Part shown: piece after piece, positions 75 to 20,382 of the stretch
How positions within the stretch are numbered: position 1 is the stretch's first letter
How the letters are laid out: each line of letters begins with the position of its first letter
Source of the DNA: an uncultured Lachnospiraceae bacterium
Lineage (GTDB): Bacteria > Bacillota > Clostridia > Lachnospirales > Lachnospiraceae
Assembly: GCA_947591245.1 (NCBI GenBank)
Contig: CANQCY010000004.1
Span: forward strand, 1 to 64,000
DNA: 64,000 nt
Direction: 5' to 3'
Made by a program: the position numbers and the translations under genes
The notes under the pieces: model-generated
Database searches by the model: none
What the model was told of the DNA's origin: nothing
Seen by the model: only the letters and a program-made list of their open reading frames with translations

Positions 75-362
75 CTATAAATTTCTATCCGCATCATCTA
101 ATTTACTAATATACTGATCGCAATACATCTTGTATTTTTTTCCTGTGGAAGTAGCAGAAGTATTATTCATTTTTCCAAATGCAGATACTTGATCAACAAA
201 TTCCTGTATTGCATCATGTGTTCGTCCCTCCATAAATCCCTGATCCAATAGCCCCAACAGAATATCTTGATACCTTTCAATTGCATCTTGCAATTCAGTA
301 TATTCATTCAATAAAAATTCCCCCATCTCACTAATATACTTATCCTCTACAATCAAATTCAC
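75..362 (-). CDS. YwqI-like (DUF5344-like) T7SS accessory protein
   Basis: Encodes 95 residues, predicted almost wholly helical, with no signal peptide or membrane segment. The start is a GTG whose bases overlap the stop of the preceding gene (GTGTGA), with a G-rich SD just upstream, so the two are probably translationally coupled. Size and position after a coiled-coil protein match the YwqI (DUF5344) member of the Bacillus ywqH-ywqI-ywqJ set, whose products assist a polymorphic LXG toxin exported by type VII secretion. The assignment is by architecture and neighbours, not a visible signature motif; it could simply be a divergent WXG100 relative. An SD-like AAAGGTGG lies near position 15 on the same strand, so a further gene, possibly the toxin, should start just off the left edge. 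Confidence 0.6.
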   Translation of the reverse strand: MNLIVEDKYISEMGEFLLNEYTELQDAIERYQDILLGLLDQGFMEGRTHDAIQEFVDQVSAFGKMNNTSATSTGKKYKMYCDQYISKLDDADRNL

Positions 363-763
363 ACTGCATCCCCCCTGTCTTTTTCTTGTTCTACCAATAT
401 GCTATATTGTCTTGACTGTTTTTTTAATTCATCAATTTCTCCTCTTTTTTCATCAATTTCCTTTTGAATTTTCCTCATTCCTCCATTCAAATCAACTAGT
501 GCAGCTTGATATTCTTTTCCTTTTGCGCAGTTAATTAAGCCAGAAAACAGATTTATTTTTATCATGTGTTTAAATTTCCCTGGCACTGATTGTAAAAACG
601 AATATGCAGACAAACCTGTTTCTTCCAATTTATCTCGTAAGCTTGCCATCTTGTTTTTTAGAGTTATCAATTCCTGAATCTCATCTTCTAACGTATTCAC
701 CTTAGAGACAATACTCAATATCTGAGATTGATATTTCGAAATCTTTTGGTCCTTATCATTCAT
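359..763 (-). CDS. YwqH-like (DUF5082-like) coiled-coil T7SS accessory protein
   Basis: About 134 residues, with a long N-terminal heptad-rich helix, a central hydrophobic stretch and a second charged helix rich in Glu, Lys and Arg. An upstream in-frame GTG at 772 lies too close to the SD; ATG at 763 has GAGG eight bases upstream and is preferred. The helix-turn-helix hairpin shape and the overlap with a YwqI-like partner suggest the DUF5082 family, which accompanies LXG toxins in T7SSb loci. It lies behind a terminator that follows the WXG100 gene, so it depends on read-through or its own promoter. No catalytic motif is visible. Confidence 0.6.
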   Translation of the reverse strand: MNDKDQKISKYQSQILSIVSKVNTLEDEIQELITLKNKMASLRDKLEETGLSAYSFLQSVPGKFKHMIKINLFSGLINCAKGKEYQAALVDLNGGMRKIQKEIDEKRGEIDELKKQSRQYSILVEQEKDRGDAV

Positions 764-774
764 GTCCTTCACCT

Positions 775-819
775 CTAAAAAATGTGGCTATCACACTACT
801 AATCGTCATGATAGCCACA
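775..819 (-). terminator. Rho-independent terminator after the WXG100 gene
   Basis: Perfect 11-bp inverted repeat (TGTGGCTATCA at 783-793, TGATAGCCACA at 809-819) with a 15-nt loop, followed on the minus strand by six T. It lies 18 bases beyond the WXG100 stop and separates that gene from the YwqH/YwqI-like pair. Confidence 0.85.
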
Positions 820-836
820 CGAATTTTCTTCTTGCG

Positions 837-1130
837 CTATCTTCCAATTGAATTGGCGCCATCTATGTCTCTCTGCTTTTCATTTTCACTATATTTTTTG
901 ATATATGTGGATATATCAGTTATAGCTTTTATCGCTGATTCCAATGCCTTTTTATGCACTGTTTCAAATTCGTTTAGAAACGCCTCTGCCGTTTTATTTT
1001 GCCATCCTTCCGCCAGTGTTTTATTTGTCGAGTTTAAACTGGTCAAGACATTTGAGATAGCTTCTGCTCCTTTCTGATATGTAGTGGAAGTGCTCTCCAG
1101 AACATCATAATCAATTTTGTTTGTTGCCAT
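837..1130 (-). CDS. WXG100 family (EsxA-like) T7SS substrate
   Basis: A 97-residue helical-hairpin protein of the standard WXG100 length. The central turn reads GWQNKTAEAF, so the classical W-x-G is W-x-N here, a variant tolerated in the family. Near the C terminus YSENE fits the Y-x-x-x-D/E export signal recognised by EssC-type ATPases. No signal peptide. SD GAGG precedes the ATG. The gene follows essC by 48 bases and is closed by a strong terminator. The function, a secreted dimer that also works as a structural export partner, is inferred from the family. Confidence 0.85.
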   Translation of the reverse strand: MATNKIDYDVLESTSTTYQKGAEAISNVLTSLNSTNKTLAEGWQNKTAEAFLNEFETVHKKALESAIKAITDISTYIKKYSENEKQRDIDGANSIGR

Positions 1131-1160
1131 AATTTCATCCTCGCTTTCTATTAATATTAT

Positions 1161-1181
1161 TAAACATATTTAATATGTTTA
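1161..1181 (-). repeat. AT-rich inverted repeat between essC and the WXG100 gene
   Basis: TAAACATAT and ATATGTTTA flank a 3-nt spacer. The hairpin overlaps the essC stop. It has no T-run and could mark an mRNA processing or stability point that lets the small substrate gene be expressed above the large ATPase gene; that role is inference. Confidence 0.5.
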
Positions 1182-4100
1182 TTTCAATGTTTTAATTTTA
1201 CTTACGCTCTCACCGTATATCCAAAACGCCTCATTTTCTTGTAGTTTCCTATCATATTTTTGCCTTGTCAACAAAGTCGCATCATACAATTTGATATCAC
1301 GAATATCCTCAAATATGATAAAATGAGGATTTTCAATAAACGGCTTCAAAAACTCCGGTGCACCATAGGATGGAATTTTCTCATTTTGCAAATCAGTAAA
1401 GATTACACAACATTTCAATCCTCTGTACTTCTTTTGAATGTCTTTATACAATTCAAGCAGTTCATCATTCTTTTCAATAAACTCACCCCATCCATCAGAC
1501 TGCACCACCAAAATAAGCGGTGGCATTTTATAAATTTTTGCCATACCCTCTACTGTGCGAATTGCCTGCCTCCTCTCCAATTCTTTTTTTACATCCAAAA
1601 GTATCTCTTGAAAATCTTCTTCTGATTTTGTATACATTTCTATATCAGAAGACTCGGAAAATTCATCAAACATCCCCATATAATTATCAAACACATAAAT
1701 CAAATAATGATTTTTCAAAAAAGCTTTCATTATGTATCTGAGGAACATCTGCGCTTTTTCGCCGCCAGAAATTCCTAATATTGTCTGCTTCAACCAGTCT
1801 ACTCTAACTGGTGCCACACCGGAAAAATTAATCCCCACCGAAAATTGATTCTGATCCGATATAAAACCATACATCTTTTCGTATACATCCTCTACCAAAA
1901 CTTCTGGAACTACCGGAATTGATATTGCTTTCTGCACACCTGAACTCCGATTAGCTTTTTCAATAAAGGCGTTGATGTTTTTAATTTTTTCCATTTCTTT
2001 TTCGCCTGAAAACGCTTTAAAACTTTGAGCTTCCAATATTTCCTTTTGGTATTCAACCAAACACCGTCCATGAATATTTTCTGGCCGCAGTCGTGAATAC
2101 CCGAATAACGTACTGTACTCTGACGTATCATTACAATTCAACGCAATTTTGGTTTCAAAATTTGATATATACTTAAATCCTATTCCCGCAGTCTGCGTAT
2201 TTGCTATTACTACTGTAATACCAACTGAAACTCCCTCCCTACATATAGGAAGAAGCGCATCTTCTTCTATAAGATACAACTCATTCAGCATTGTAAAATT
2301 ATCTATCAAGATTACAGCATGCGGAAGATCGTTATTTCCTGCTTCACAATACGAAACAAATGAACTCGCACCAGCCTCTAACAACTTTTCCTTTCTCCGC
2401 TTCATCTCTGCGTGTAACATTTGAAACAGATTTTTTAACTTTTCATCCTCCGATGCTGTTACTACGCCGCCTACGTGATTTAACCTTTCATAATTTTTCA
2501 AATACATAGATGCAAAATCTATAATGTAGATATTGACCTCATTGACTGTATATTTTGTAGACAAACAGCGAATTATCGTTTGCAGCAAATTAGTTTTTCC
2601 ACTTTGAGTCGAACCAATAATCAATACATTCTGCTCACTCAAATCAATAGAATACATCTCTTGTCTCTGATTATCCGGATCATCATAAATAGCCACATCT
2701 GCTACAACATGTTTTTCTTTCTTTAACAAATCATCCTCAGCTGGAAATTCAATTATCTCTCCCAAAGCTGCCAAGCAAATATTATTGATTTTTCTAAAAT
2801 TATTTGTAATGCAAAAATCTCTTATATACTGTACAGCTGCATCTAATTGCGTCTTATCTTCCTTTATGCTTTTCTGTTTCTTTTGATGATATATGGGCAT
2901 TCTCTTTCCTGATTTTGTTATCTCATATATTGTAAACTCTTTCATCCCAGAATCATCCGCATAAATTGAGGCACCGCTATACGCTGATTGGAATAATTCG
3001 AATATCTCATTATTCCCAACTTGAAGATAAGCTCGTCCAGGCTCTTTGATTTCTGCTGCCAGCGGTGATTTAAGCACCTCATTACTGTCTTGCTGGCTCT
3101 GCACTTTCAGGCACAGTTTGAACCTTGAATTACTCCATATCTGTTCATCTACCTGTCCGGACGGTTTCTGTGTAGCCAAAATCAGATGCACGCCCAAACT
3201 TCTCCCAATTCGTGCAGCGGAAATAAGCTCTTTCATAAATTCCGGCTGATCCGCTTTCAGTTCCGCGAATTCATCCACAACCAGAATTAAATGCGGCAGC
3301 GGCGTCTGTACCTGGCCTTTCCTGAATTTTTGGATATACTTATCTATATGGTTCACTTCTGCTTCCGCAAACAAACGCTGTCTTTTTTTCAGCTCTGCCT
3401 TGATTGACTTAAGCGACCGATCAATCTCTTTCCCATCTATGTTCGTTATCGTCCCGACCATATGAGGCAGATCCCGGAACTGGTTTGCCATGCCGCCACC
3501 CTTAAAGTCAATTATGACAAATCCTACTTCGTATGGGTGATATAAAGTCGCCATAGAGATAATATACGTCTGAAGAAGTTCAGATTTACCGGAGCCTGTT
3601 GTGCCAGCAACCAATCCATGCGGACCATGCGCTTTGTCATGCAGGTCAAGATATATCGTCGCATTTTTTGAGACGCCGATTGGCGCCGCCATCGACTGAT
3701 ACACTTTAGAGTACTTCCATCTCGCTGCCAAATCGATATCTTCTACTGCGATAATATTCAGCATTTCAAACAATGATATGCTTTTTGTCAAAGAACTCTC
3801 CAAAGAGATCTCTTCTGTGTACACAGGTGCAAGAAGTTGTATCATTGCATCAATATCCCGGTCAGAGACTGCATCATACGTAAATTCCTTCGTCTTTTTC
3901 ACATCACTAGTATCTACCAATCTTGCCATGCCAGAGCCAGTGCTTTCTATCAGATAATGGCATCCTTGCGCAATATCCGCTCTTGCATTGCCAAAAAACA
4001 CAAATGTCACGCCTATTTCACTTGCCGTCTCAATAAATCTTGATAAAGGATGATTCTTTAATCCATACTCGTCATATAAGAAAACCAAAATATGCGGTGC

Positions 4101-5672
4101 GCTGACCTTGCTTTGTTCACGGCCGGTCAACTCCTTGAATAAATACTCATATAGTACCGTTTTACTTGAATCGTCACATACAATATTATGAATCCCCAAT
4201 ACCTCGTTCTGAACATGAGGCAGCATCCGAAAGCGCAACACCTGTTTTTCATGTTCCGCCTCAGCAACAAAAAACATCTTTACATCCGAGTGATACTGCC
4301 GTGCGCATACATCCACGATAATATTTTTAAGAATATCAAATCTTGTCTTCTCATCTCCCACAATTCCTACAGCACCCGCATTTTTAAAATTACATACGAT
4401 CGGGGCATTGTCGATATATTTGTACTGTTCATGCAATTTAGACGGCTGCTCCTGCAAATCATCTTCTACCTCCAGCCTCTCCTGTTTTTTGTAATCAACT
4501 ACCCTGACTGCTTCCAATTTTCCTACGCCAAGCCGGATTTCAAGAAAATCTTCATCCGCCTTGCAACGGTCAAACAATTCATAGGAAAAAGATTTCATTT
4601 TCTCTATTTCCTGTTTTTCAGAAATGTATTTTGTCTCCAGGACAGATAATTCCTCTCGTCTTGCTTGGTTCAATTCACTCCGTTTTTTTTCTATGTACGC
4701 AGTATACTTGCTAATTCTGTCGTCAAACTGTTTTTTATAGTCTTTCCCGGCTTCTTTTACCCCAATGACAGCCGTGACAACTCCGGCGCCTGCGGAAACG
4801 ATGCTGAACAATATAAATGCACCGCCTCTAAACATTCCCATAATTATTGATGAGAGAACCATAATTAAAGATGGTAGTAATCTCGTAAGCAGATTATTTT
4901 TGGGTTTCTGGGGAACCGCTGGTGGGTCAAGCACTTCTATTTTCTCATCATCCAGCAAAATCATCACTCTGGAATTACGGTTAAACCGGGGATAGTCGCC
5001 TCTATAAGCAGCGTCCGTGTATGGAATCCCATTCTCACGCAGCTCATTCCTTATCTGTGTAAAAAGATTTTCATCTCGATAATAAAAGCTGAAATCTCCG
5101 ATAGAGAAAAAATCCCCATCTCCAATCTGCGCCCCATCTTTTACAACATTTCCATTATGATATACGCCATATGCCGCATTCTGGATCGAAAGAAGCAATC
5201 CACCGTTATGTTTCTTCAATGTTATTTTGTCATTTTGAGTATAAGGGCTACTTATTATAATATCATTTTCATAAGATGCGCCAATCGAAAACAGGTTCTT
5301 GGAAGCCAGATTATATCTTCTGTCATATATTTTATTTTCATAATCGAAATCCAACAAAAACTGAATGTGCATCGCTGCGCTGTCAGACTTCTGATAGCAT
5401 AATACCAACTCTGAACCATGGCCTATCGGGCTAGTCATTAGTTTTCTGACCTCATCGGCATGTATATATAAATTGTCAGAACATGTAATATTCCATACAT
5501 CGTTATCATCTTTATGGAACAGCAGCTCCACCGGTTCAAAAAACAGCTCCTTTCTGACGCGGACATCACAAGCATGCTCCGTGCCAAATCTTATCATCTT
5601 ATTCTCTGGAGAAACTTCTATTTCTTTATACAAATTTTTATTTAATATTGCGATTCGATATCTCTTTTCCAT
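1179..5672 (-). CDS. essC: FHA-domain EssC-type T7SS ATPase (FtsK/SpoIIIE family)
   Basis: About 1,497 residues, the usual EssC length. In order: two FHA-like beta domains (residues ~1-210), a pair of membrane segments (~262-305), a coiled linker, then three FtsK/SpoIIIE-type modules. The first has Walker A GTTGSGKS near residue 692 and Walker B ILVVDEFAEL; the second has GSTQSGKT near 1,024 with a hydrophobic VILIDNF strand; the third (GISGGEKAQ near 1,303) lacks the GKS/T core, as is usual for EssC D3. It is the membrane motor and substrate-recognition component of T7SSb. ATG at 5672 has AAGGAG seven bases upstream and overlaps the yukD-like stop, implying coupling. The gene is AT-rich compared with the housekeeping genes to the right. 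Confidence 0.93.
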   Translation of the reverse strand: MEKRYRIAILNKNLYKEIEVSPENKMIRFGTEHACDVRVRKELFFEPVELLFHKDDNDVWNITCSDNLYIHADEVRKLMTSPIGHGSELVLCYQKSDSAAMHIQFLLDFDYENKIYDRRYNLASKNLFSIGASYENDIIISSPYTQNDKITLKKHNGGLLLSIQNAAYGVYHNGNVVKDGAQIGDGDFFSIGDFSFYYRDENLFTQIRNELRENGIPYTDAAYRGDYPRFNRNSRVMILLDDEKIEVLDPPAVPQKPKNNLLTRLLPSLIMVLSSIIMGMFRGGAFILFSIVSAGAGVVTAVIGVKEAGKDYKKQFDDRISKYTAYIEKKRSELNQARREELSVLETKYISEKQEIEKMKSFSYELFDRCKADEDFLEIRLGVGKLEAVRVVDYKKQERLEVEDDLQEQPSKLHEQYKYIDNAPIVCNFKNAGAVGIVGDEKTRFDILKNIIVDVCARQYHSDVKMFFVAEAEHEKQVLRFRMLPHVQNEVLGIHNIVCDDSSKTVLYEYLFKELTGREQSKVSAPHILVFLYDEYGLKNHPLSRFIETASEIGVTFVFFGNARADIAQGCHYLIESTGSGMARLVDTSDVKKTKEFTYDAVSDRDIDAMIQLLAPVYTEEISLESSLTKSISLFEMLNIIAVEDIDLAARWKYSKVYQSMAAPIGVSKNATIYLDLHDKAHGPHGLVAGTTGSGKSELLQTYIISMATLYHPYEVGFVIIDFKGGGMANQFRDLPHMVGTITNIDGKEIDRSLKSIKAELKKRQRLFAEAEVNHIDKYIQKFRKGQVQTPLPHLILVVDEFAELKADQPEFMKELISAARIGRSLGVHLILATQKPSGQVDEQIWSNSRFKLCLKVQSQQDSNEVLKSPLAAEIKEPGRAYLQVGNNEIFELFQSAYSGASIYADDSGMKEFTIYEITKSGKRMPIYHQKKQKSIKEDKTQLDAAVQYIRDFCITNNFRKINNICLAALGEIIEFPAEDDLLKKEKHVVADVAIYDDPDNQRQEMYSIDLSEQNVLIIGSTQSGKTNLLQTIIRCLSTKYTVNEVNIYIIDFASMYLKNYERLNHVGGVVTASEDEKLKNLFQMLHAEMKRRKEKLLEAGASSFVSYCEAGNNDLPHAVILIDNFTMLNELYLIEEDALLPICREGVSVGITVVIANTQTAGIGFKYISNFETKIALNCNDTSEYSTLFGYSRLRPENIHGRCLVEYQKEILEAQSFKAFSGEKEMEKIKNINAFIEKANRSSGVQKAISIPVVPEVLVEDVYEKMYGFISDQNQFSVGINFSGVAPVRVDWLKQTILGISGGEKAQMFLRYIMKAFLKNHYLIYVFDNYMGMFDEFSESSDIEMYTKSEEDFQEILLDVKKELERRQAIRTVEGMAKIYKMPPLILVVQSDGWGEFIEKNDELLELYKDIQKKYRGLKCCVIFTDLQNEKIPSYGAPEFLKPFIENPHFIIFEDIRDIKLYDATLLTRQKYDRKLQENEAFWIYGESVSKIKTLK

Positions 5673-5944
5673 CACAGTTCTCCTTCAGCTATCATAATTT
5701 TTGTGCCGTTCATCACATTGTACTCACTTAGCAATTTGTTCCCCCGAAGCAGCGCAATCGGATTTTCTGTTTTAATATAGCACTTTTTTACATTTTCTGT
5801 GTCGATTCCTAGCCGGTATGCAGAATTTAAACTCACTACTAATTCATGTGCTGTGATAAAGAGCGGAATCTCCAAATCATGCGTTTCCACTTTGCCGTTC
5901 TTTTTTTTAATATTTAATATAACCACCGCCGTTTCGTTCCCCAT
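5672..5944 (-). CDS. YukD/EsaB ubiquitin-like T7SS protein
   Basis: A ~90-residue cytosolic protein with the alternating beta pattern of the ubiquitin-like YukD/EsaB family. It opens with a VVILNIKKKNGK strand and turn, continues with DLEIPLFITAHELVVSLN and ends NGTKIMIAEG. No membrane segment. Two tandem ATGs are present; the second (5944) has the better distance to AAGGAG. EsaB is a small required or regulatory component in T7SSb loci and usually neighbours essC, as here. Its place between the ParA-like ATPase and EssC makes the secretion assignment of this operon firm. Confidence 0.82.
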   Translation of the reverse strand: MGNETAVVILNIKKKNGKVETHDLEIPLFITAHELVVSLNSAYRLGIDTENVKKCYIKTENPIALLRGNKLLSEYNVMNGTKIMIAEGEL

Positions 5945-5954
5945 CATGATCTCC

Positions 5955-7007
5955 TTATATCAATAAAAACGCTATATTTCGAATACTGTCCTGTTTTCCA
6001 AAATCCTCAACGCTCATGTCTTCATATTCTGAAAAAAATTCCACATATTCGTCATTTTTGTATCGGCTGACATCCATGTCCGCTGCAAATTCTTTTTCAT
6101 TTTCTACAAATTTATTGCAGATAAACAAATATTTATCCGTACCGATATTGCTTATATTAGAAACCAACCGGTTCGTAGCGAACACACTGTTTTTTGTCGA
6201 TTCGGATACCACAATCACCTGATCTGACAAGCTTAGCATTTTAGCTTTTGCCGCATCAAAAATGGTATCTGCATCTACAACAATATAATCATATTCTCCA
6301 GACTCTTTTGCCCCTTCCGCAAGCATCCCATATACATGGTACTCAATGCCAAACGACATCAATGCTGCTTTCATAGGCGGCAAATAGAAAAATTTCTCTT
6401 TCCTCAACTCTCTGCTAATATCTCTATATATCGTTTTGGGCGGATTCGCCAATCTCGTATATATTCCTTGATTCAATATCGGCGAATCATCCTCCATATG
6501 CTGCTGAAAATTCTGCAGTCTGGATGCCTCTATGTATAACACCCGCTTGTACATATCACTAAGAGCCGACGACAAGCCCAACGCTATCGTTGTCTTCCCC
6601 ACGCCTCCTGCCGCTGACGTAACAAGAATAATTTTGGGATCATTCCCTCCCTCTTTGATCGGAACATTCAGGTTGCTGACGCCCGTTATCTCTAAAAAAA
6701 TTCCCTTCGCACTCGTATATTTGTATATTTCATGGACGTTTCCCGCTTTGCCAGAATCATTTTCTGGACTCTCCATCATCCGGAAAATATGCCCTATCTC
6801 ATGCCTCGCAATTTCTTCCTTATAAAAATCCTGTGAAATAATCAACACATCCATTTTCTGCAGACGGCTAAAAAACTGATCGAAAAAATCCTTGTCAGTA
6901 ATTATTTCTATATCTACCAGATCATGGAATTCGTATATAAATTTTGCCTGAATAGAAGCAATATACGAAAAATCATCATCTACAATAACAATTCTCGGCC
7001 TTTGCAC
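5955..7007 (-). CDS. CpaE/TadZ-like ParA-superfamily ATPase in the T7SS locus
   Basis: 350 residues, GTG start. The N-terminal ~100 residues look like a receiver fold (IVIVDDDF acidic pocket), but the expected phospho-acceptor strand reads DVLIISQDF, so the Asp is absent. From residue ~130 follows a MinD/ParA domain: ILVTSAAGGVGKTT is the P-loop, YDYIVVDADT the later acidic strand. The deviant Walker A signature lysine (KGGxGKT) is replaced by Ala. The layout resembles CpaE/TadZ proteins that place secretion machines at the membrane. Here it probably localises or organises the secretion complex; that is inference from fold and operon. Confidence 0.75.
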   Translation of the reverse strand: MQRPRIVIVDDDFSYIASIQAKFIYEFHDLVDIEIITDKDFFDQFFSRLQKMDVLIISQDFYKEEIARHEIGHIFRMMESPENDSGKAGNVHEIYKYTSAKGIFLEITGVSNLNVPIKEGGNDPKIILVTSAAGGVGKTTIALGLSSALSDMYKRVLYIEASRLQNFQQHMEDDSPILNQGIYTRLANPPKTIYRDISRELRKEKFFYLPPMKAALMSFGIEYHVYGMLAEGAKESGEYDYIVVDADTIFDAAKAKMLSLSDQVIVVSESTKNSVFATNRLVSNISNIGTDKYLFICNKFVENEKEFAADMDVSRYKNDEYVEFFSEYEDMSVEDFGKQDSIRNIAFLLI

Positions 7008-7025
7008 AATGACACCCCCATACTG

Positions 7026-7868
7026 TTACCGTTTCATAGAAGTTGCCAGCATCCTGTTCTGCCTGATCGCAGAGAGCAAACTGTTAAAAGAGCATCCTGG
7101 CTCTTCCAGCATTTGCATAATCGTTCTTATCTTTTCCTCCTGCATTAATGACGACTCCTTTATAATACAAGCCAAATCATTCCGAAGGCTGTTCTCCAAA
7201 TACATAATATCCGGATAACATCTGTTTTTGATCGGAACATATGTCAAATAAACCTGTCCATCCTGTGCATCAAGGTAAATCCGTTTCATTCTGGCGTCAA
7301 TTCCCACGTTAGATAAAAAGCCGTTTTCCTTGATCAGATCCACTTGATTCAATATATTTTCTACAATGCACATAAGTCGCGTCGAATCCAGCGAACACAG
7401 CATAACCTCAAATGATTTTAATTTCCCGACCATATAATATAAAGCGTCCTTGCCATTATATTTAATCAGTTTACATTTAAGCAACGATTTATTTCCTATA
7501 CTGTTGACCACTTTATATTCCGTAGATGCGAAACTTGCTTCGGAATCTAATATGTAAATAAAATCGTTTTGGCAAGAGATCTCATCTATGATATGATCTT
7601 CAATTAGCGCATTTGTTTGGTTTAATTTTTCCAAATCAAACTTCCCGATACTATGATGCTGTTCTCCTTTTCCATCTGCCTCATTTGTTTCTGAAATGAA
7701 ACTTCCAGAAAGCGACTCCCATTTTGCTGCCGGAGGAGGTACTGATGAAATAGTTTCTATGGAGATCGCTTCCACAGAAACAGGATCTATCAGGGAAGTA
7801 CCGCACCCGCTGCACACATTTGAACTATTTGGATTTTTCATTCCGCATCTCAAACAAAATCTGGCCAT
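7026..7868 (-). CDS. Zinc-ribbon protein with DUF6382-like domain
   Basis: About 280 residues. It begins with a zinc ribbon (CLRCGMKNPNSSNVCSGCG), then a linker and a ~190-residue domain. The run KRIYLDAQDGQVYLTYVPI and a later Leu-rich helix resemble DUF6382, a domain often found beside FHA modules. No membrane segment. The in-frame ATG at 7883 is part of the SD for ATG 7868 (AAAGGAAAAGTC), so 7868 is the likely start. EssB, the usual pseudokinase partner of EssC, is missing from the locus and this protein occupies its place, but I cannot show homology to EssB. Confidence 0.6.
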   Translation of the reverse strand: MARFCLRCGMKNPNSSNVCSGCGTSLIDPVSVEAISIETISSVPPPAAKWESLSGSFISETNEADGKGEQHHSIGKFDLEKLNQTNALIEDHIIDEISCQNDFIYILDSEASFASTEYKVVNSIGNKSLLKCKLIKYNGKDALYYMVGKLKSFEVMLCSLDSTRLMCIVENILNQVDLIKENGFLSNVGIDARMKRIYLDAQDGQVYLTYVPIKNRCYPDIMYLENSLRNDLACIIKESSLMQEEKIRTIMQMLEEPGCSFNSLLSAIRQNRMLATSMKR

Positions 7869-7917
7869 GACTTTTCCTTTCAATCCATAGTCTTTTTATA
7901 CCATCTGCACTCTTTTT

Positions 7918-9777: not shown

Positions 9778-9820
9778 GATACTCTCCTCCATTTCATCCC
9801 AATTTTATCTGTTCTATGAA

Positions 9821-10573: not shown

Positions 10574-10603
10574 ACTCATATCCTCCACTTGTCGTATTTT
10601 CGA

Positions 10604-12634
10604 TTATTTCTTTCCGTGATGTTCAGTTGAGTTATCTTTTAAAGCGCCCTTATTGTTTGAATAGTACATCCACCCCGAATCCGCCTTTGCATACACGTAC
10701 TTTCCGTCATACATCTCAAGCACTTTCCTTGTCCCCATATCTGAACTGAAGCGGTATGTATCGCTATGCCCGCCTTTTAAATTTTTGTTAATCCATGTAA
10801 ATGAACCATTCTCCCAACCATTTTTATATTTTCCAATAAATGTCGCGCTTGAATCACTATTATACTTAGAATAATAAACCGTGCATTTTCCGTTCGGATA
10901 TCCGTTTTTGAATGTTCCATTAATCGTATAATACCCTCCATATGCCGTTTGATCTGGATCACCTACCTCTTTTCCCTTGCCAGATGGTTTACCATCTTCA
11001 AAGTTTCCCAGATAGGCATAATCATCCCAAACATAATACACAAATCCTTTCCCGCTTTCGATTCTATCCACCAGTTCACCTTGTTGGATATATATCTTTT
11101 CTTTTCCTTCAAGATAAGATTTCTCATATCCATTTCTGATCAGTTTCATCGCCGCCTCATACTTTTTATCCTCAATATACGTTATGATCTTATTGCCATA
11201 TTTCAGACAATTATTATTTTCTTTATCAAGCTTTTCCTGCGCTGCAATTTGAGCCGGGTCAGCAGTACTATCCCCGCTTTCGATGGCCATATTACTATCC
11301 TGTGCTTGCTGATCTTCTTCACCCAGCTGTTCCTCTACCGTTGGGACAACCGTCCTGTCATCACTATCAGACCTTTTGACATCATTTATGACACCAATAA
11401 CTAGCATTGCAATCAAAACTATACTTGCTACCCTAACCCCCCTCTTTTCTTTCCTCTGGTTTGAATAACTAACTTTAGGCGGTGGCGTCGGTGGCGTCGT
11501 CTGTGTTTCCGATGGTGGATCATCTGACGGCGGCGTCTGTGTTGCTAGAAACAAATTCCTAATCTTTTCTTCCACCGCACATAGTGGGCAGAACCGATTA
11601 TGTCCAAAATAATAATGACTGTCATTGGCGTCGCAGCTCTTAATATCAGAAAACGATTCCTCCAAAGCGTCAATCCACTCCTGTGCATCCGCTCTCTTGG
11701 ACGGATCCCGATATCCATCAATAAAAGTTTTAATAAATAAATTTTGGAGCCTCTCTGGCAAAGCGGAGAAGTCTGGAGCATAAACTGGTGGTGTGATTCC
11801 TTCTCTTTTCTCATAGAATGGAAAAAAACCATCTCTTATATTTTCGATCGGCTGCGGTGCAACGACAGACTGCCTGGCATTCAGACCATCCATCTGCTCC
11901 ATCGTATTTTCTATTTTTCCTTTTTCATCTTTTGCACAAGCAAAAGGATGGCTTCCATTCATTAACAATGTAAACACATGTACTGCCAATGCAAATAAAT
12001 CTGTCTCTTTTGTATAAGTCGGAAGCGGAGCTGTCCTAAGTGTCAACCCACTTTCCATTTTTTTCTGTACCTCGGGCGCTATATAATCCGCCAACCCCAC
12101 TTCGCATCGATATGTTTTTCCATCCGGTGATACGAAATGATACGAATCTGTATCTACCAATGTCACGTGAAACGCATTCTCCAGATCATTCATATCAAGA
12201 TTAACACTTATGTTTAGCGGATTCAGATCTCCACATATCTGACCCATGTCATGAACAGTTTTAAGTGCGTGACAAAGATTCAGTGCTGTCAAAAGGCGAT
12301 ATCGCAAATCAAACTTGTTGTCTGCCCCTGAACTATAAATAGCATTTAATGTCTCTTCCTTATTCAGCTTGGGCATGACATATCCTACAAAGCCATTCTG
12401 GTCATAAATCACATCCTGAGGCCAGGTGACTTGCTGCAGCTCTTCTGCACCCAATTTCATCGTCACCATGTGTCGCAGTTTATCCTCACGCTCTTCATTT
12501 CTTTTGTCTGGTTTAAAGATTTTTGCTACTTGATTATCATTACTGCGTACACTATAGATCGCCCCCTCGCCCCCGCTGGCAATCTTACTGTCTTCCACCA
12601 AGTATGTTATTCCGGATATTCCCTGATACTGCAT
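10604..12634 (-). CDS. Divergent protein kinase with TM helix and MORN repeats
   Basis: About 676 residues. The N-terminal kinase fold has a Gly-rich loop ASGGEGAIYSV, ATP-anchoring KIF, a catalytic loop CGDLNPLN (~136) replacing HRDxxxxN, and DTDSYHF for DFG. A Cys/His cluster follows (CDANDSHYYFGHNRFCPLC, ~343), then a Pro/Thr linker, one membrane helix (~405-425) and a C-terminal region with about three MORN-type repeats (GNFEDGKPSGKG, GTFKNGYPNGKC, GKYKNGWENGSF). ATG 12634 fits SD GAGGG. The family resembles YegI, the kinase of the YegIKL/TerY-P set. The MORN part, predicted outside if the N terminus is cytosolic, may touch wall or membrane lipid. Activity is not proven. Confidence 0.82.
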   Translation of the reverse strand: MQYQGISGITYLVEDSKIASGGEGAIYSVRSNDNQVAKIFKPDKRNEEREDKLRHMVTMKLGAEELQQVTWPQDVIYDQNGFVGYVMPKLNKEETLNAIYSSGADNKFDLRYRLLTALNLCHALKTVHDMGQICGDLNPLNISVNLDMNDLENAFHVTLVDTDSYHFVSPDGKTYRCEVGLADYIAPEVQKKMESGLTLRTAPLPTYTKETDLFALAVHVFTLLMNGSHPFACAKDEKGKIENTMEQMDGLNARQSVVAPQPIENIRDGFFPFYEKREGITPPVYAPDFSALPERLQNLFIKTFIDGYRDPSKRADAQEWIDALEESFSDIKSCDANDSHYYFGHNRFCPLCAVEEKIRNLFLATQTPPSDDPPSETQTTPPTPPPKVSYSNQRKEKRGVRVASIVLIAMLVIGVINDVKRSDSDDRTVVPTVEEQLGEEDQQAQDSNMAIESGDSTADPAQIAAQEKLDKENNNCLKYGNKIITYIEDKKYEAAMKLIRNGYEKSYLEGKEKIYIQQGELVDRIESGKGFVYYVWDDYAYLGNFEDGKPSGKGKEVGDPDQTAYGGYYTINGTFKNGYPNGKCTVYYSKYNSDSSATFIGKYKNGWENGSFTWINKNLKGGHSDTYRFSSDMGTRKVLEMYDGKYVYAKADSGWMYYSNNKGALKDNSTEHHGKK

Positions 12635-12709
12635 CTCTGAATCACCCTCTTTTCTAGATAAGCATTGTGCCACCAACCATCAAGTTACCCCACAAAGAAA
12701 ACATGAAAC

Positions 12710-12820: not shown

Positions 12821-12845
12821 ATGAATCTCTCCTTTTTAATAATTT

Positions 12846-13514
12846 TTACAGTCCAATCGCTGAACGCAGTTTTTTATGAAATTCCGCTGCTCTCTGATAC
12901 GAACAGTTCCTAAGCCGTATGCGGAACCAATGCCCTGGATACGCCGTATAAATCTGAACACCACGAAATATAAAATAGCCTACCACAGAACATCCGCAAA
13001 GAAGGAAAAAAATTATTACACCCGGTCCCCCATCATCTGATGCTGCACAGATAATTCCAAGTATAAATGCAATCACTGCATAGACCAAATATTGAACCGG
13101 ATTAACATGCATGATACTGGTCGCCGATATATCTTTCATGTCCACGATGAAGCCTTTTTTTATAAAACCTTGACGAAATGTAAACCGTCCCTGTTTTACG
13201 TAAAGCCTTTTTTCTGTAAAAAAAACTTCATCCTTACCAATGCCTCCTCCCATCAAAAATGTCAATAAAGGAGAGGATGACAATTTATCTACAATTGTCT
13301 CCCTCGGATCAACCAGAATAGACAATGAATCCCCTGACATGCCTCCGCCCATATTTGAATATGAATAAGAACTGCCTTGCTGCATATTGCTTTGCCTCTG
13401 CGGTCCCTGCCTGCCTCCTTGGGGCGGCATACCTCCAAATCTTGCCCCACATGCACCACAGAATGCCGCATTATCCGGTAAAATACTGTTACATCTTGGA
13501 CATCTTTTACTCAT
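12846..13514 (-). CDS. Zinc-ribbon membrane protein with PH-like domain
   Basis: 222 residues. An N-terminal zinc ribbon (CPRCNSILPDNAAFCGACG) is followed by a Gly/Gln/Ser-rich linker, then a region with the look of a bacterial PH-like domain (EVFFTEKRLYVKQGRF). This is interrupted by two membrane helices (VQYLVYAVIAFILGIICAA; VIIFFLLCGCSVVGYFIF) and resumes at the C terminus. The SD is AGGAGG. It lies between the two kinase-VWA pairs of the island. Its job is unknown; as a membrane-bound zinc-ribbon protein it could recruit soluble components. Confidence 0.65.
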   Translation of the reverse strand: MSKRCPRCNSILPDNAAFCGACGARFGGMPPQGGRQGPQRQSNMQQGSSYSYSNMGGGMSGDSLSILVDPRETIVDKLSSSPLLTFLMGGGIGKDEVFFTEKRLYVKQGRFTFRQGFIKKGFIVDMKDISATSIMHVNPVQYLVYAVIAFILGIICAASDDGGPGVIIFFLLCGCSVVGYFIFRGVQIYTAYPGHWFRIRLRNCSYQRAAEFHKKLRSAIGL

Positions 13515-13807
13515 GCTTCATCCTCCTGTTCTCTTATAAGGTGATTTTTATGTTATCTGTTAATTATGGCGGTCATACCGTCTATCATGTATACCTTCGT
13601 ATCCGAATTCCTGAATTTATTCCCCGATCCCTTTGCTGTTCCTAAACCGACATGGGATATCATTGTGAAATTTTGGTATCTTCATCTCTCTGAAATGGAT
13701 ACCATCATATAGAAGTTTTATTTTCCGGCTGGCAAAGCCGCCACTATAGCATCTCTGTACTGACACGAAACTCCGTCGCGCTTATTTTACCTCCCTTCAC
13801 TCCCTAA
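13515..13807 (-). other. Intergenic stretch with possible eroded reading frame
   Basis: This 293-base gap in the operon carries a 54-codon open frame without ATG (13617-13781, minus). Its residues look coding-like (SGGFASRKIKLLYDGIHF, then KIPKFHNDIPCRF). An SD-like GGGAGG at 13791-13796 is not followed by a suitable start. It may be a gene remnant; otherwise only the SD of the next gene is seen. Confidence 0.3.
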
Positions 13808-14566
13808 CTAATACCACCCTTCATCAATTGCCCGATCCTGACGAGCTATCCTAACACCCAGCGGCAGATCATCCAATTGAGGCTTTTGCCAAACAGACGA
13901 CCGTGATATCGTTGCCAAACTCTTGCTGATCCAGTCGAATATAATAGAAAAATCCTGATCCTTTAATTCCACAACCCGCTTGGTCAACGAAAACAGCTGA
14001 CTTGAATCATAATCACCAGTCCCCAATGCCCAAAATGCCAGTCCACACTTGCCATTTTCCGCCCTTTCCTCTTCCAATCGAATACGCTCTGCCGCATCCG
14101 ACATCTCCTGTTGAGATGACGTGGCCACCCCATCCGTGATCATAAAAATCCATGGTTTATAAAAGGGAGTTCCGATTCTCTGGTAAAGCTCTGTCCTCTC
14201 ATTCACTAAATCAATTGCCAGTTGTATTCCTCTTGCCATTTCTGTACGCCCATCCGCTTTCAATCGCGGTGTCGGCATTTCTGTTACAGGAACAAAGTCG
14301 CTTATCATTTGAACTTCTGATCCAAAAGTAATAATAGCTATATCCACCCGTTTTCTGGCTTCAGGATCTGATAAAACCTGTTCCTTAAACTGTTGTATTG
14401 CCTTGTTTAAGCTTCCGATCGCTTCTCCATACATAGAACCAGATACATCTAACAGTAATGCGCACGCCATGTGTGGCATATGTATTTCAAGCGTTTTCTT
14501 ATACACTTCTGCACTTTGTGCTCTTTTGTCATTAAAAAAATCATTCACTCCTGCTTGTTTACTCAT
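13808..14566 (-). CDS. VWA domain protein (TerY/YegL-like), copy 2
   Basis: About 252 residues, clearly paralogous along its length to the copy at 9821-10573. The MIDAS motif is intact: DVSGSM, TEM in DGRTEMARG, FMITDGVA. The protein is cytosolic. GGAGG eight bases before ATG 14566 fixes the start and removes an apparent overlap with the upstream kinase gene. Kinase 2 and VWA 2 form a tandem unit like kinase 1 and VWA 1, so the pair was duplicated as a unit or acquired twice. The C termini differ slightly (QLDDLPLGVRIARQDRAIDE), which may give specificity for the neighbouring kinase. Confidence 0.85.
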   Translation of the reverse strand: MSKQAGVNDFFNDKRAQSAEVYKKTLEIHMPHMACALLLDVSGSMYGEAIGSLNKAIQQFKEQVLSDPEARKRVDIAIITFGSEVQMISDFVPVTEMPTPRLKADGRTEMARGIQLAIDLVNERTELYQRIGTPFYKPWIFMITDGVATSSQQEMSDAAERIRLEEERAENGKCGLAFWALGTGDYDSSQLFSLTKRVVELKDQDFSIIFDWISKSLATISRSSVWQKPQLDDLPLGVRIARQDRAIDEGWY

Positions 14567-14592
14567 ATATAAATCCTCCTGATCCGTTTTGC

Positions 14593-16299
14593 CTATATCC
14601 ATGATAAGAAACATATTAATGGCAGCATCAGAACTAAAATTAAGATTATAATTGATGCAATCCGCATAGGATTCCAGTTCTTTTTTGTGCCGTCTCCATT
14701 TGTAAACAATTCTTTTCTTTTAGTGAAATAAACATAACTCAAAGCAATTTCGGCGATATATATTCCAATTTCAACCCCAATCCAAGAAATTCTCCCTTTT
14801 ATATCTTCTATAATTTCACTGATAGATGGTTGAACATCAGCATAAATCATTATAAGATAAAACAATGGCATAATAGCACATATACTTTCTGAAATGTAGA
14901 AACACCTCGGACCATTTGCTTTATATCTTGCAAGTTGGAATCTTGTATAAACTTGAAAGCAAGCTAGGAACACCAAGTAAATACCATAAAAAACACTCGC
15001 ACCACGAGAAGGGCTAATAATTAACATAAAAGCATTTTCAAAATTGTAACCAGCAGAAACAAAAAGTGCAAAATTAATGAGGTATTTATAATACTTCATA
15101 GGGTGAGGATTGTTATGCCCTTTGGGAGTGTTTGTTATTCCAGATGAAAGTTCTTGCTCAGAATAATGATCTGATTCTGATCGGTTCTTCTCTCCAGAAT
15201 CGCTGCTCTCTCTGCCTCCACTCATCAGAATTGCAATCTTCTCTTCTATACCGCATATAGGGCACTGCGCTGCATGATCGAAATAATAATGCCCCTTACT
15301 TTCGCAAGAACTAATATTATTTTTCACATCAAACAATGCATCAATCCACTCCTCCGCCTTCACCCTCATACTCGGATCAGAGTATCCGTCCACAAAAGTT
15401 CTTACAAACAACGCCCTTAAATTCTTCGGAAGCGCATCAATCTCTGGTGCATACACAGGAACTGAAATACCATCCCTTTTCTCATAAAATGGGAAAAAAC
15501 CATCTCTTATGTTTTCAATTGGCTGTGGCGCAACAACGGAATCCCTCACATAATTACTGCTCATCTGACGCAATTCCTCATCTTGCCCATTTCCTAACGT
15601 TTTAGCACAAGCAAATGGATGACATCCATTCATTAACAGGGAAAAGATATGGACAGCCAGAGCAAATAAATCTGTCTCCTTCGTATAGGTCGGAAGCGGC
15701 ATACTTTTTAATGTCATCCCTCCTGACATTCTATTTTGCAGTTCCGGCGCGATATAATCCGCCAACCCTACCTCACAGCGGTATGTCTTATCTCTTGCCG
15801 TAAAGTGGTAAGAATCGGCGTCCACCAAGGTCACATGGAATGCATTTTCATCGTTCATATTAAGATTGACGCTTATATTTTGAGGATTCAAATCCCCACA
15901 TACCTGTCCCATTTCATGAACAGTCTGTATAGCATAACAAAGATTGACTGCCACCAAGAGCCGATATCTCAAATCGAACTGACTAACCCCGGAACTGTAA
16001 ACCGATGTAAGAGGTTCGCACTGCTCTACCCTTTGCATAACATATCCTGCAAATCCCTGGCTATTGTAAACCACATCCTGAGGCCAGGTAATCTCTTCCC
16101 GTATATTCCCAGTCAGATTTGCCTGAACCATTTCCTTTATTTTTTCTTCCCGCTCTGCACTACGCTTTTCTGGTTTAAAAATTTTAATGACCCTTGACCT
16201 GTCATCCTCTACTTCAAAAATCACCCCTTCCCCACCGCTAGCCAGCTTTTCTCCGGTCAAATATACCTGACCTTTTAATCCCTGGTACTTAATAGACAT
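14593..16299 (-). CDS. Divergent protein kinase with C-terminal multi-TM domain
   Basis: 568 residues. The kinase half matches the first kinase of the island: LASGGEGVIFEV loop, CGDLNPQN (~136) as catalytic loop, DADSYHF in place of DFG. The Cys/His cluster (CESKGHYYFDHAAQCPICG, ~345) is also conserved. The C terminus is entirely different: instead of one helix and MORN repeats it carries several membrane segments from ~397 on. This part matches the membrane domain of the 190-residue zinc-ribbon protein at 17546-18094 (shared features: KYLINF-type helix, KYKxNxPxC, YFxKRKE). SD GGAG fixes the start. Role inferred as a membrane-anchored partner of VWA copy 2. Confidence 0.82.
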   Translation of the reverse strand: MSIKYQGLKGQVYLTGEKLASGGEGVIFEVEDDRSRVIKIFKPEKRSAEREEKIKEMVQANLTGNIREEITWPQDVVYNSQGFAGYVMQRVEQCEPLTSVYSSGVSQFDLRYRLLVAVNLCYAIQTVHEMGQVCGDLNPQNISVNLNMNDENAFHVTLVDADSYHFTARDKTYRCEVGLADYIAPELQNRMSGGMTLKSMPLPTYTKETDLFALAVHIFSLLMNGCHPFACAKTLGNGQDEELRQMSSNYVRDSVVAPQPIENIRDGFFPFYEKRDGISVPVYAPEIDALPKNLRALFVRTFVDGYSDPSMRVKAEEWIDALFDVKNNISSCESKGHYYFDHAAQCPICGIEEKIAILMSGGRESSDSGEKNRSESDHYSEQELSSGITNTPKGHNNPHPMKYYKYLINFALFVSAGYNFENAFMLIISPSRGASVFYGIYLVFLACFQVYTRFQLARYKANGPRCFYISESICAIMPLFYLIMIYADVQPSISEIIEDIKGRISWIGVEIGIYIAEIALSYVYFTKRKELFTNGDGTKKNWNPMRIASIIILILVLMLPLICFLSWI

Positions 16300-16339
16300 T
16301 TTGCATGCTCCTTACACTTACCATTCTTTTGTTACACTC

Positions 16340-17251
16340 TTAAAAAGATGACATCTGTTCTACAGCATACTCGTTACCACAATTGGACGCTTCCCTATAA
16401 TACTCATATGCGTCATCTGCTTGGTAACCAGCCCCTATGCCAACCCCTTGACTTATTAAATCTCCAATCATTGCATATACGTCACCTTTTTGCTCTGTCG
16501 TCATATTCATATTATTTTTTACCATAAGAAGTGTCTGAAGATCCTGTTCCAAAACTATATTGGAATAAGACATATTATTATGTAGCACGGCTATCAAATA
16601 GGCTCCCCAAGGATTCAGCCCCAGCACTCCTTCTTTGGACATATATTCTTCCAGGTCAGGAATATTCTGCTCATTAAATGCCGTAAACGCTAATATCCAG
16701 TAGGTGTTGATGCGCCATTCATCTACATCATCTTCTGTCCCTGATGCCGAAATGAACCCATTCTCCATATCTTGCAACCGTTTTAGCACCTCATGGCACT
16801 CTGTCTTAGCCAATGTATAATTTCCTTGCTGCCTCGCCTGTTCTGCCCGATTGATTTTCTGCGGAATCTCTGTATCTGGATGAGGAGTTGTTGGCGGCAC
16901 TGGCGTCCGTATTGGCGCTGGTTTTGGCGTCGGTATCTGTTCCTTTTCCATTTTTACCGAAGAATTTATCGCTCTCTGCTGACGTCCTCCGGCCTTTTGA
17001 TAATATTCATCAGCAATCTTCTGGTTCTTCGCAAAATAAACTCCGTTTTCATACATGTAAGCCAGACCCAAATAGCCTTTTTCAAGCCCCATTTTTTCTG
17101 CTTTATGAAACATCTGATAAGCTTTGGTCAAATTTTTTTCATGCCCTTTCGTACCATATAAGCAACGCTCGCCTAGCTCACAGATTGCCTCTCCATCCTT
17201 TTGGTTTACCAATTGCAGTAATTCCTCATTTGATTTATTTGAATAATCCAT
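16340..17251 (-). CDS. Sel1-repeat protein with Pro-rich linker
   Basis: About 303 residues. Residues ~1-95 contain Sel1/TPR-like helical repeats (GERCLYGTKGHEKNLTKAYQ; GLAYMYENGVYF). A Pro/Thr linker follows, then a helical C-terminal domain of ~170 residues, again TPR-like, ending with another Sel1-type unit (YQADDAYEYYREASNCGNEY). No signal peptide. ATG 17251 lies eight bases after the SD; GTG 17257 is too close. Probably a cytosolic scaffold for the kinase/VWA complex. A truncated copy of its N terminus lies at 18468-18605. Confidence 0.72.
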   Translation of the reverse strand: MDYSNKSNEELLQLVNQKDGEAICELGERCLYGTKGHEKNLTKAYQMFHKAEKMGLEKGYLGLAYMYENGVYFAKNQKIADEYYQKAGGRQQRAINSSVKMEKEQIPTPKPAPIRTPVPPTTPHPDTEIPQKINRAEQARQQGNYTLAKTECHEVLKRLQDMENGFISASGTEDDVDEWRINTYWILAFTAFNEQNIPDLEEYMSKEGVLGLNPWGAYLIAVLHNNMSYSNIVLEQDLQTLLMVKNNMNMTTEQKGDVYAMIGDLISQGVGIGAGYQADDAYEYYREASNCGNEYAVEQMSSF

Positions 17252-17289
17252 GTCCACAACCTCATCTCACTTAAATAAAATATGATTTA

Positions 17290-17502
17290 CTATGCCCCCT
17301 GCTCCCCCCACCTCTGATACTGCCTCCACATCTCATCCTCCGGAATACGGGAATTATCTTTCCTTTTCTCCCATATCTGGCGGTCTAACTCCCGTTTCCT
17401 GCCTATGCATCCACGAACAAAAATCCATTTCCATTTTTCTTTACCTATTTTCGCGCCGCCCTCCACGTCGCCGACGAAAAAAATTTTTCTGCCTCCCCGC
17501 AT
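17290..17502 (-). CDS. Possible 70-residue Trp-rich basic protein
   Basis: ATG 17502 has a near-ideal SD (GGGAGGG, nine bases away) and opens 70 codons in the operon orientation, between the Sel1 gene and the 4-TM zinc-ribbon gene. The product is basic, with five Trp and a charged helical second half (KRELDRQIWEKRKDNSR, then WRQYQRW). I recognise no family. Without it the stretch 17252-17545 would be a 294-base gap. Confidence 0.45.
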   Translation of the reverse strand: MRGGRKIFFVGDVEGGAKIGKEKWKWIFVRGCIGRKRELDRQIWEKRKDNSRIPEDEMWRQYQRWGEQGA

Positions 17503-17545
17503 GAATTTTGTCCCTCCCTCGCCATCTTTCTGAATTCCATCCGCT

Positions 17546-18094
17546 TTAATTTACAAACATTTCTTTCCTCTTATTGAAGTAAATTCGATTCAACACGATG
17601 CATACAATGCTGCTGATCACTCCCCCGATAGCCGCTGACAGCGGCCCGCTTTCATTCACCACTAAGAAAAACATTATGCTATAGAACAGCAAAACCCCTG
17701 CATTCATGCCATACAAAAGGTAAAGGCACATAGGTGCGTTTGATTTGTACTTTACGAGACGATTTCTTGTAAAAATGGCATATCCCGCCAAGGCAAAATC
17801 CAATAACCCATACACCACATCTACGACGCGGAGGCCATCAAACGTATCATATACCATTTCTGCCGAAATCCCGATATCCAGTGTTCCTGAATAAATGCTT
17901 CCCGTTATGTATTGGAATCCTTCACGAATGTCGTATAGAACACTGCAGAACAGCTCAAAATTAACCAAAAATTTAAACCATTTCATCGGATAATCTGCAA
18001 TCTGCTCTGAACCAACAAATTCTGACGACCCACACTGTGGACAAAATTTTGCATTGTTTTCCGCCTCTTTGTGACACTTTGCACACACTTTCAT
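17546..18094 (-). CDS. Zinc-ribbon plus multi-TM protein
   Basis: About 182 residues: an N-terminal zinc ribbon (CAKCHKEAENNAKFCPQCG), a short linker, then four probable membrane segments ending at YFNKRKEMFVN. The membrane part is homologous by eye to the C terminus of the kinase at 14593-16299. ATG 18094 sits about seven bases from GGAGG; ATG 18118 is upstream of that SD. It is the first intact gene of the leftward operon. Zinc ribbons recur in at least three proteins here, suggesting a shared adaptor role; the exact function is unknown. Confidence 0.65.
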   Translation of the reverse strand: MKVCAKCHKEAENNAKFCPQCGSSEFVGSEQIADYPMKWFKFLVNFELFCSVLYDIREGFQYITGSIYSGTLDIGISAEMVYDTFDGLRVVDVVYGLLDFALAGYAIFTRNRLVKYKSNAPMCLYLLYGMNAGVLLFYSIMFFLVVNESGPLSAAIGGVISSIVCIVLNRIYFNKRKEMFVN

Positions 18095-20293: not shown

Positions 20294-20382
20294 TCTTTTC
20301 TCCATTCGTACATTCATTTTTCTGTCGCCGCGTTTCAGTGGCATCAGTACAACAAGTATTATACAAAAACCAATAATGTCCG

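Follow-up and report, generated by a model that had tools for sequence, protein, structure and literature searches.

Genes at the locus

The DNA analysed here, referred to below as the window, consists of the initial 64,000 bases of contig CANQCY010000004.1 (contig C4, 96,362 bases) from the genome of an uncultured Lachnospiraceae bacterium (2.07 Mb in 55 contigs, 85% complete). At its left end, 15 minus-strand genes occupy positions 75-18118 and combine the core of a type VII secretion system (T7SS) resembling the published subtype T7SSf with a TerY-P signalling module (kinase, VWA protein and PP2C phosphatase). Each part is known separately; the presence of a TerY-P module on a T7SSf-like core appears to be new. 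According to open reading frames and Pfam/TIGRFAM profiles, these genes bear all the domains named in a prediction made earlier from the bare sequence (the original prediction). The leftward run that it described, of WXG100, FHA-EssC, YukD, a ParA/CpaE-like ATPase, a PP2C phosphatase, two VWA proteins, two kinases and three zinc-ribbon proteins, was confirmed by profiles and a structural model, one of the zinc ribbons lying below the Pfam cut-off. Contig C4 ends at window base 1, which cuts the gene run just past its last gene (75..362), so that the window by itself cannot show a gene to be absent.

The export core begins with a WXG100 protein of the EsxA/TsxA kind (837..1130; PF06013, 1.3e-10) and an EssC/TsxC ATPase (1179..5675; TIGR03928, 1082 bits for a cut-off of 778) with an N-terminal tandem of FHA domains, transmembrane (TM)-like stretches and two Walker A motifs, at residues 691 and 1021. 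The adjoining ubiquitin-fold protein (5672..5947) is YukD-like (TsxB); its PF08817 match (9.1e-5) is below the cut-off but is backed by its position beside essC. Next come a TadZ/CpaE-like ATPase (5955..7007; PF13614, 3.9e-13; weak PF21194, 0.041), TsfV-like and with an N-terminal receiver-like domain, and a TsfJ-like protein (7026..7883) that carries a zinc ribbon (PF13240, 9.1e-5) and a DUF6382 domain (PF19909, 1.1e-7) with a predicted kinase-like fold, and that lacks a C-terminal FHA domain according to the alignment described below.

The signalling genes follow directly. They encode a TerY-P-type PP2C phosphatase (7918..9792; PF13672, 4.5e-27) with one TM-like stretch and its motifs present, a first TerY-like VWA protein (9821..10588; PF13519, 6.2e-9) and a first kinase, KinMORN (10604..12676; PF00069, 7.3e-9), in which the kinase domain is joined to a zinc ribbon, a TM-like stretch and a weak, below-cut-off MORN-like repeat. 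Further upstream lie a second TerY-like VWA protein (13808..14614; PF13519, 3.7e-8) and a second kinase, KinTM (14593..16299; PF00069, 6.5e-9), with a zinc ribbon and TM-like stretches. From KinMORN to the WXG100 gene the intergenic gaps are 15, 28, 34, 18, 7, -4 and 48 bp, the 34-bp gap being that between the PP2C and DUF6382 genes on the same strand; further upstream they reach 169, 293 and 288 bp. With this spacing, the stretch between KinMORN and WXG100 resembles an operon that takes in the T7SS core, and its genes may be transcribed together. Promoter and terminator scans of the locus gave no enrichment over shuffled sequence.

The remaining genes of the run are a zinc-ribbon membrane protein with TM-like stretches (12846..13514; PF13240, 2.2e-6), a Sel1-repeat protein (16340..17257; PF08238, 5.7e-8) and a zinc-ribbon protein with a TM domain (17546..18118; PF13240, 1.1e-5) that is kin to the KinTM tail (39% to KinTM residues 433-539, 1.6e-10). 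TM tails like that of KinTM are also found in other genomes of the family without a match to the kinase part. At the contig end, a 95-residue protein (g1, 75..362), with no Pfam family above cut-off and a homologue in the same place at another locus (L038; 34% over 95 residues), adjoins a 137-residue YwqH-like coiled-coil protein (g2, 359..772; PF16888, 0.04, below cut-off), the L038 homologue of which matches PF16888 at 6.6e-10. Both proteins look like small LXG partners (Lap-like proteins). The original prediction was silent on these two genes at 75-772 and on the DUF6382 domain of the 7026-7883 protein. Beside the run, at 19352-21448, lie genes for a transporter of the Mem_trans family and for a C5 cytosine DNA methylase (20492-21448), after which come what appear to be purine genes.

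A T7SSf-like export core

The T7SSf gene set comprises WXG100, YukD, EssC with FHA domains, a PPM phosphatase, a protein with DUF6382 and FHA domains and a TadZ-like ATPase (Garrett, Higginson and Palmer 2024, PMC11217815). A TIGR03928 search of 150 genomes of the family found EssC above the cut-off in 36, and part of these share a recurring block of DUF6382 protein, TadZ-like ATPase, YukD and EssC. A wider profile scan, based on an alignment of 12 block-type EssCs, yielded at least 80 named essC loci. In a FastTree phylogeny of 111 EssCs (107 different; EssCs of at most 1000 residues, as at L180, omitted), the window EssC falls in a clade of 59 rows, with 48 named loci, apart from the T7SSb clade (local support 98). 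The counts given below for this f-clade refer to these 48 listed loci, 26 of which have at least 8 kb on both sides of essC. A YukD match was present in all of those 26, and TadZ matches were present in 32 of the 48. Two genomes of the family (G070 and G129) each have two T7SSf-like loci with different EssCs (L035 and L039; L041 and L042).

The original prediction also stated that EsaA, EssA and EssB, normal members of T7SSb loci, are missing here, and whole-genome searches bear this out for EssB and EsaA. EssB (PF10140) had no match in the source genome, which is 85% complete, and was found in six of six T7SSb genomes and in B. subtilis. EsaA likewise had no match in the source genome and matched in six of six T7SSb genomes, always below the cut-off; its profile also matches an f-type genome (G082) and some control genomes for which no T7SSb is claimed. 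The contig end cuts the locus, but these searches make it unlikely that the contig edge is the whole cause of the missing genes. Nine genomes of the family have this kind of EssC locus, and eight of them lack both EssB and EsaA; the ninth, G082, has one stop-broken EssB-like match and one EsaA-like match. Another of the nine, G105, has a long-branched EssC immediately outside the 59-row clade. In gene content, the window core of WXG100, EssC, YukD, TadZ-like ATPase and DUF6382 protein closely resembles the published T7SSf.

The TerY-P module and its distribution

Profile hidden Markov models (HMMs) of the triad, built without the window proteins, match KinMORN at 8.4e-99 and KinTM at 9.4e-92, the VWA proteins at 2.7e-40 and 5.7e-36 (first and second, respectively) and the PP2C at 7.1e-46 (E-values for the 15-protein set). 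The catalytic residues and the zinc ribbon of the kinases are conserved, with (near-)invariant Cys/His positions 332, 337, 346 and 349 in 11 aligned rows. Judged by these profiles, the kinase/VWA/PP2C set constitutes a TerY-P triad in the sense of PMC11090510, and the original assignment of the signalling genes to the TerY-P/YegIKL type stands, the YegIKL label being its own. An orthology of the window PP2C with the PPM phosphatase of f-type loci was rejected by HMM comparison (7.1e-46 for the triad model, 1.6e-5 for the f-type model).

TerY-type kinases were sought in 150 genomes of the family, 39 of the genus, 392 of the order, 398 of the phylum and 38 of the family to which locus L246 belongs. 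Neighbourhoods were taken for the stronger matches, with nine weak family matches and one genome of the L246 family (G309) excluded, and gave 38 stretches; as two pairs overlap, these represent 36 places, including one in the genome of the window itself. A kinase of PknB type, at a locus where no EssC was found (L110), was left out of this count. The original prediction tied the signalling genes to essC, and the wider distribution largely contradicts this: a TerY-type kinase stands without essC at 35 of the 36 other places, although some stretches stop close to the kinase (e.g., L099, L245 and L268) and an essC just beyond is possible there. VWA and PP2C accompany the kinase at 26 of the 36. 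The HMM scan found the TerY-P module in none of the 48 listed f-clade loci, and the Paenibacillus loci L217 and L220 (beside Tad-pilus-like genes, as judged by eye) and locus L193 also had no triad matches. The complete gene set of the window was not met again, either in the neighbourhoods taken in the kinase surveys from family to phylum or in the HMM scan of the 80 listed essC loci.

The base composition of the locus is also unusual, with a GC content of 0.33-0.46 compared with 0.488 in the rest of the window, and the window's type of EssC was found in a single genome out of 39 from the genus; a further six carry a different type, at 31-35% identity. Low GC content and patchy occurrence give the region the look of a mobile island, on which core and module could be separate arrivals. 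All these distributions weigh against a functional link and favour the alternative that the two parts are chance neighbours, in which a mobile TerY-P stress or defence module was inserted beside an acquired T7SSf-like locus and the two retain separate functions. We regard this alternative as possible, at somewhat less than an even chance. It does not readily account for the common strand and the 34-bp gap between the PP2C and DUF6382 genes, for the position of the module, which is that of the kinase/PPM pair in some relatives, for the coupling of a TerY-type kinase to essC at L246 in another family, or for the fact that the DUF6382 protein itself is altered in the window locus.

Triad-type kinases also occur away from T7SS genes. 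A third paralogue, 58% identical, lies on contig C22 of the source genome (L098:1912-3633), and no VWA or PP2C match was found in the 20 kb examined around it, a stretch that begins at a contig end. In genome G105, three kinases of the triad type were matched; together with two PP2C and two VWA proteins they lie on one contig (L101/L102), and the T7SSf-like EssC locus lies on another. Contig C29 of the source genome (L222:4155-7402) bears a separate cluster, in which a PknB-type kinase is accompanied by a small protein resembling a zinc ribbon and by an FHA protein, the FHA domain of which is one of two above the cut-off genome-wide; this kinase/FHA cluster may act as a distant partner of the T7SS.

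Kinases and phosphatases at related loci

T7SSf has been described as lacking an associated kinase (PMC11217815). Kinases of the PknB type are nevertheless present in 22 of the 48 listed f-clade loci, within the flanks examined and always on the essC strand (no locus has a minus-strand match), upstream of essC in 13, like the module in the window, and downstream in 10, one locus having both. A Stp-type PPM phosphatase is found in 16 of the 48 (13 upstream, 3 downstream), and kinase and PPM occur together in 14. Of the 26 listed loci in which each flank is 8 kb or longer, 15 have a kinase, 10 a PPM and 9 both. T7SSb loci, a taxonomically different control, have neither (0 of 23 for each). In the nine family genomes, a kinase lies within 10 kb in 5 of 11 EssC loci (read by hand), compared with 0.45 expected (P = 4e-5); without G105 the figures are 4 of 10 and 0.38 (P = 3e-4). 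These values carry the qualification that loci sharing a genome do not count as independent. Should the loci belong to T7SSf, the statement that no kinase accompanies T7SSf fails in the wider set, and the absence of a kinase is doubtful as part of the definition of this subtype.

At four related loci (L170, L171, L202 and L159), the order on one strand is PPM, kinase, small open reading frame, DUF6382, TadZ and YukD, and the gaps reach 288 bp at most; an additional FHA gene is present in L170, and the kinase of L159 is split over two frames. KinMORN, the first VWA protein and the PP2C sit in the window where these four loci carry kinase and PPM. A different combination of kinase, VWA and PPM is seen in genome G107 (L058:7529-12981), in which a VWA+FHA protein neighbours a PknB-type kinase and a PPM; all three lie to the side of essC where its WXG-like genes are.

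FHA domains of EssC and the DUF6382 protein

The Pfam call for FHA on the window EssC is weak (0.017). In an AlphaFold2 model of residues 1-250 (pLDDT 88.8), these N-terminal 250 residues are predicted to fold as an EssC FHA pair, and the top two Foldseek matches are solved EssC FHA domains (5fwh, 1.9e-7; 1wv3, 2.1e-7). FHA domains that read phospho-threonine typically have an arginine after the key glycine, plus an S..H motif. Among 47 distinct N-termini from the 59 f-clade EssCs (the window included; EssCs of at most 1450 residues and duplicates omitted), this arginine is found in none of the first FHA domains and in one of the second, and S..H occurs once. The window EssC has GT and GA at the key-glycine positions and no S..H.

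The original prediction had the FHA domains of EssC bind phospho-threonine made by the kinases of the module. Two FHA folds in EssC and two kinases nearby would suit such a readout, phosphorylation control has been raised for some T7SS subtypes in parts of PMC11217815, and the sections of that paper differ on conservation of the T7SSf FHA motifs: these are 'only partially conserved' in its T7SSf section, and well conserved in T7SSe, f and j in the relevant part of its Discussion. The missing phospho-threonine residues (arginine absent from 47 of 47 first and 46 of 47 second domains) argue against it. In B. subtilis, the EssB/YukC pseudokinase binds the FHA region of YukB, and this contact was judged to be phosphorylation independent in the part of PMC9600267 that deals with it. 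Direct reading of phospho-threonine by EssC is, for these reasons, very improbable.

The DUF6382 protein of the window differs from its relatives. In an alignment of 30 of 33 rows (omitted were L141, which a contig end truncates, and two longer rows, L159 and L181), 28 of the 29 relatives have a C-terminal FHA domain, as judged by eye (it is absent in L184), and 24 of the 29 have the strict FHA pattern (Gly followed by R/K/T/N/S, with S..H). The window protein ends before the FHA region, and is the only one of the 30 rows with a zinc-ribbon pattern. Its structural model (pLDDT 81) is kinase-like, with the YukC/EssB pseudokinase as best Foldseek match (2.3e-6) and many kinases close behind; LIMK2 and other kinases rank level with YukC in one list of structural matches. 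On the basis of this predicted fold, the DUF6382 protein is a candidate, not a proven, stand-in for the EssB pseudokinase. Direct homology with EssB was not supported by profile comparison (hhalign probability 1.5%, E = 0.033), and the fold alone is shared. On contig C34 of the source genome (L221:4504-5811), a match to the DUF6382 HMM with an FHA domain stands at the end of what appears by eye to be a Tad-pilus-like cluster; the DUF6382 family may serve Tad pili too.

Proposed control of export by phosphorylation

The reading favoured here, to which we give an even chance, is that the window encodes a T7SSf-like export apparatus with a TerY-P module in the kinase/PPM position of some relatives, controlling export by phosphorylation. 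Control of secretion by phosphorylation had been proposed in the original prediction and is plausible, given the operon-like gaps and the kinases and PPMs of relatives; the part of that proposal that made the EssC FHA domains the reader of phospho-threonine is the one that the residue counts oppose. The apparatus would consist of the EssC ATPase, YukD, WXG100, the TadZ-like ATPase and the DUF6382 protein, and the Lap-like proteins would partner an effector, probably encoded beyond the contig end. The TerY-P module, with two membrane zinc-ribbon kinases, two VWA proteins and a membrane PP2C, may have replaced a PknB-type kinase/Stp-type PPM pair. Its kinases would phosphorylate a core component or each other, the PP2C would reverse this, and the VWA proteins could act as scaffolds or as sensors, perhaps of a metal. 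The net phosphorylation state would then license EssC assembly or ATPase activity. The readout probably does not involve phospho-threonine binding by an FHA domain of the window locus, and more likely runs via the DUF6382 protein, which may, like the B. subtilis EssB pseudokinase, bind the non-canonical FHA pair of EssC independently of phosphorylation.

A different function for the same genes would be an anti-phage or abortive device, in which TerY-P would respond to damage or infection by setting off T7 export or the release of an effector. Both CoCoNuT islands and a Helicobacter island have been described in which TerY-P accompanies WXG100 and EssC-like ATPases (PMC11090510, PMC4978471), and the C5 DNA methylase at 20492-21448 lies nearby. 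The CoCoNuT EssC-like protein, as far as it is covered in those parts, lacks the FHA and TM portions that the window EssC possesses, and none of the genes in the run was recognised as a restriction or nuclease gene in the Pfam scan; such a device appears unlikely.

If control of export by the TerY-P module is confirmed, the regulatory position of T7SSf-like systems would be modular, with a PknB-type kinase (often accompanied by a PPM) or TerY-P driving one apparatus. This would go some way towards explaining the repeated appearance of kinases and phosphatases among new T7SS subtypes, would widen the kinase-free picture of T7SSf, and would provide testable partners for DUF6382, which by its predicted kinase-like fold is a candidate for the cytosolic equivalent of the EssB pseudokinase.

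Zinc ribbons in kinases and core components

The single place among the 36 at which essC lies beside a TerY-type kinase is L246. Here, a kinase with PASTA domains is located 11 bp upstream of EssC, which is followed by WXG100; the stretch stops 147 bp upstream of the kinase, so that the presence of VWA and PP2C cannot be judged. The L246 EssC branches next to the f-clade, has no Pfam FHA match and carries an N-terminal zinc-ribbon pattern, and is alone among the 111 EssCs (107 different) in having this pattern in its first 80 residues. Two T7SS lineages may each have recruited a TerY-P kinase together with a zinc ribbon on an FHA-less core component. As TerY-P kinases carry a zinc ribbon of their own, contacts between kinase and core ribbons, perhaps metal dependent, would gate secretion in place of phospho-threonine/FHA binding. 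Separate post hoc tests of the zinc-ribbon coincidence gave 0.009 for the EssC rows and 0.033 for the DUF6382 rows, for a pattern seen after the fact at two loci, and we consider this exchange rather doubtful. If real, it would constitute an exchangeable signal-input slot on the type VII machine.

Comparison with known systems

The original prediction knew of no described system with this gene set, which is correct in part only. A T7SS subtype with kinase, vWA and PPM, T7SSc, has been published (PMC11217815), as has T7SSf itself, and TerY-P next to WXG100/EssC-like genes is reported in section 10 of PMC11090510 and in part of PMC4978471, where the description of TerY-P cites Anantharaman 2012. 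The association of an S/T kinase with YukD operons had already been pointed out in 2006 (PMC1779556). No description of TerY-P on a T7SSf-like core was found in a literature search that left most subscription papers outside its reach.

A kinase and a phosphatase next to a secretion machine are likewise found in the threonine phosphorylation pathway of the type VI secretion system (T6SS). The T6SS pathway uses an FHA reader. Unlike this pathway, the window locus shows no FHA domain with canonical residues. The Agrobacterium case of T6SS threonine phosphorylation is cited in part of PMC11217815.

With T7SSb, the window shares an EssC with two non-canonical FHA domains, YukD, WXG100 and Lap-like genes, but its genome has no EssB or EsaA match, and a DUF6382 protein and a TadZ-like ATPase are present instead. 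The likeness to T7SSc, compared by description only, lies in the kinase, vWA, PPM phosphatase, YukD, WXG100 and EssC-type ATPase. T7SSc, however, has an EssC without FHA domains and an EspG-like chaperone, and its description mentions neither a DUF6382 nor a TadZ-like protein (PMC11217815), whereas the window EssC has two FHA folds; no EspG-like gene (TscG), for which no dedicated search was made, was recognised in the visible part of the locus.

The closest likeness is to T7SSf. The window has WXG100 (TsfA), the FHA-bearing EssC (TsfC), a YukD-like TsfB at its conserved position next to essC and a TadZ-like ATPase (TsfV). TsfJ consists of DUF6382, a C-terminal FHA domain and two TM helices; its window counterpart has DUF6382 and a zinc ribbon, without FHA domain or TM-like stretch. 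As a possible counterpart of TsfF, the PPM phosphatase of T7SSf, the window has a PP2C, which fits the triad HMM far better than the f-type-PPM HMM, and two kinases and two VWA proteins are present in the window in contrast to the kinase-free T7SSf as published. The components of a TerY-P triad, i.e., a TerY-like VWA protein, a PP2C and a kinase fused to a C-terminal zinc ribbon, are all encoded here. Elsewhere, according to parts of PMC11090510 and PMC4978471, TerY-P accompanies restriction or helicase modules and, in CoCoNuTs, an EssC-like ATPase that lacks both FHA and TM portions, whereas in the window it accompanies a T7SSf-like core.

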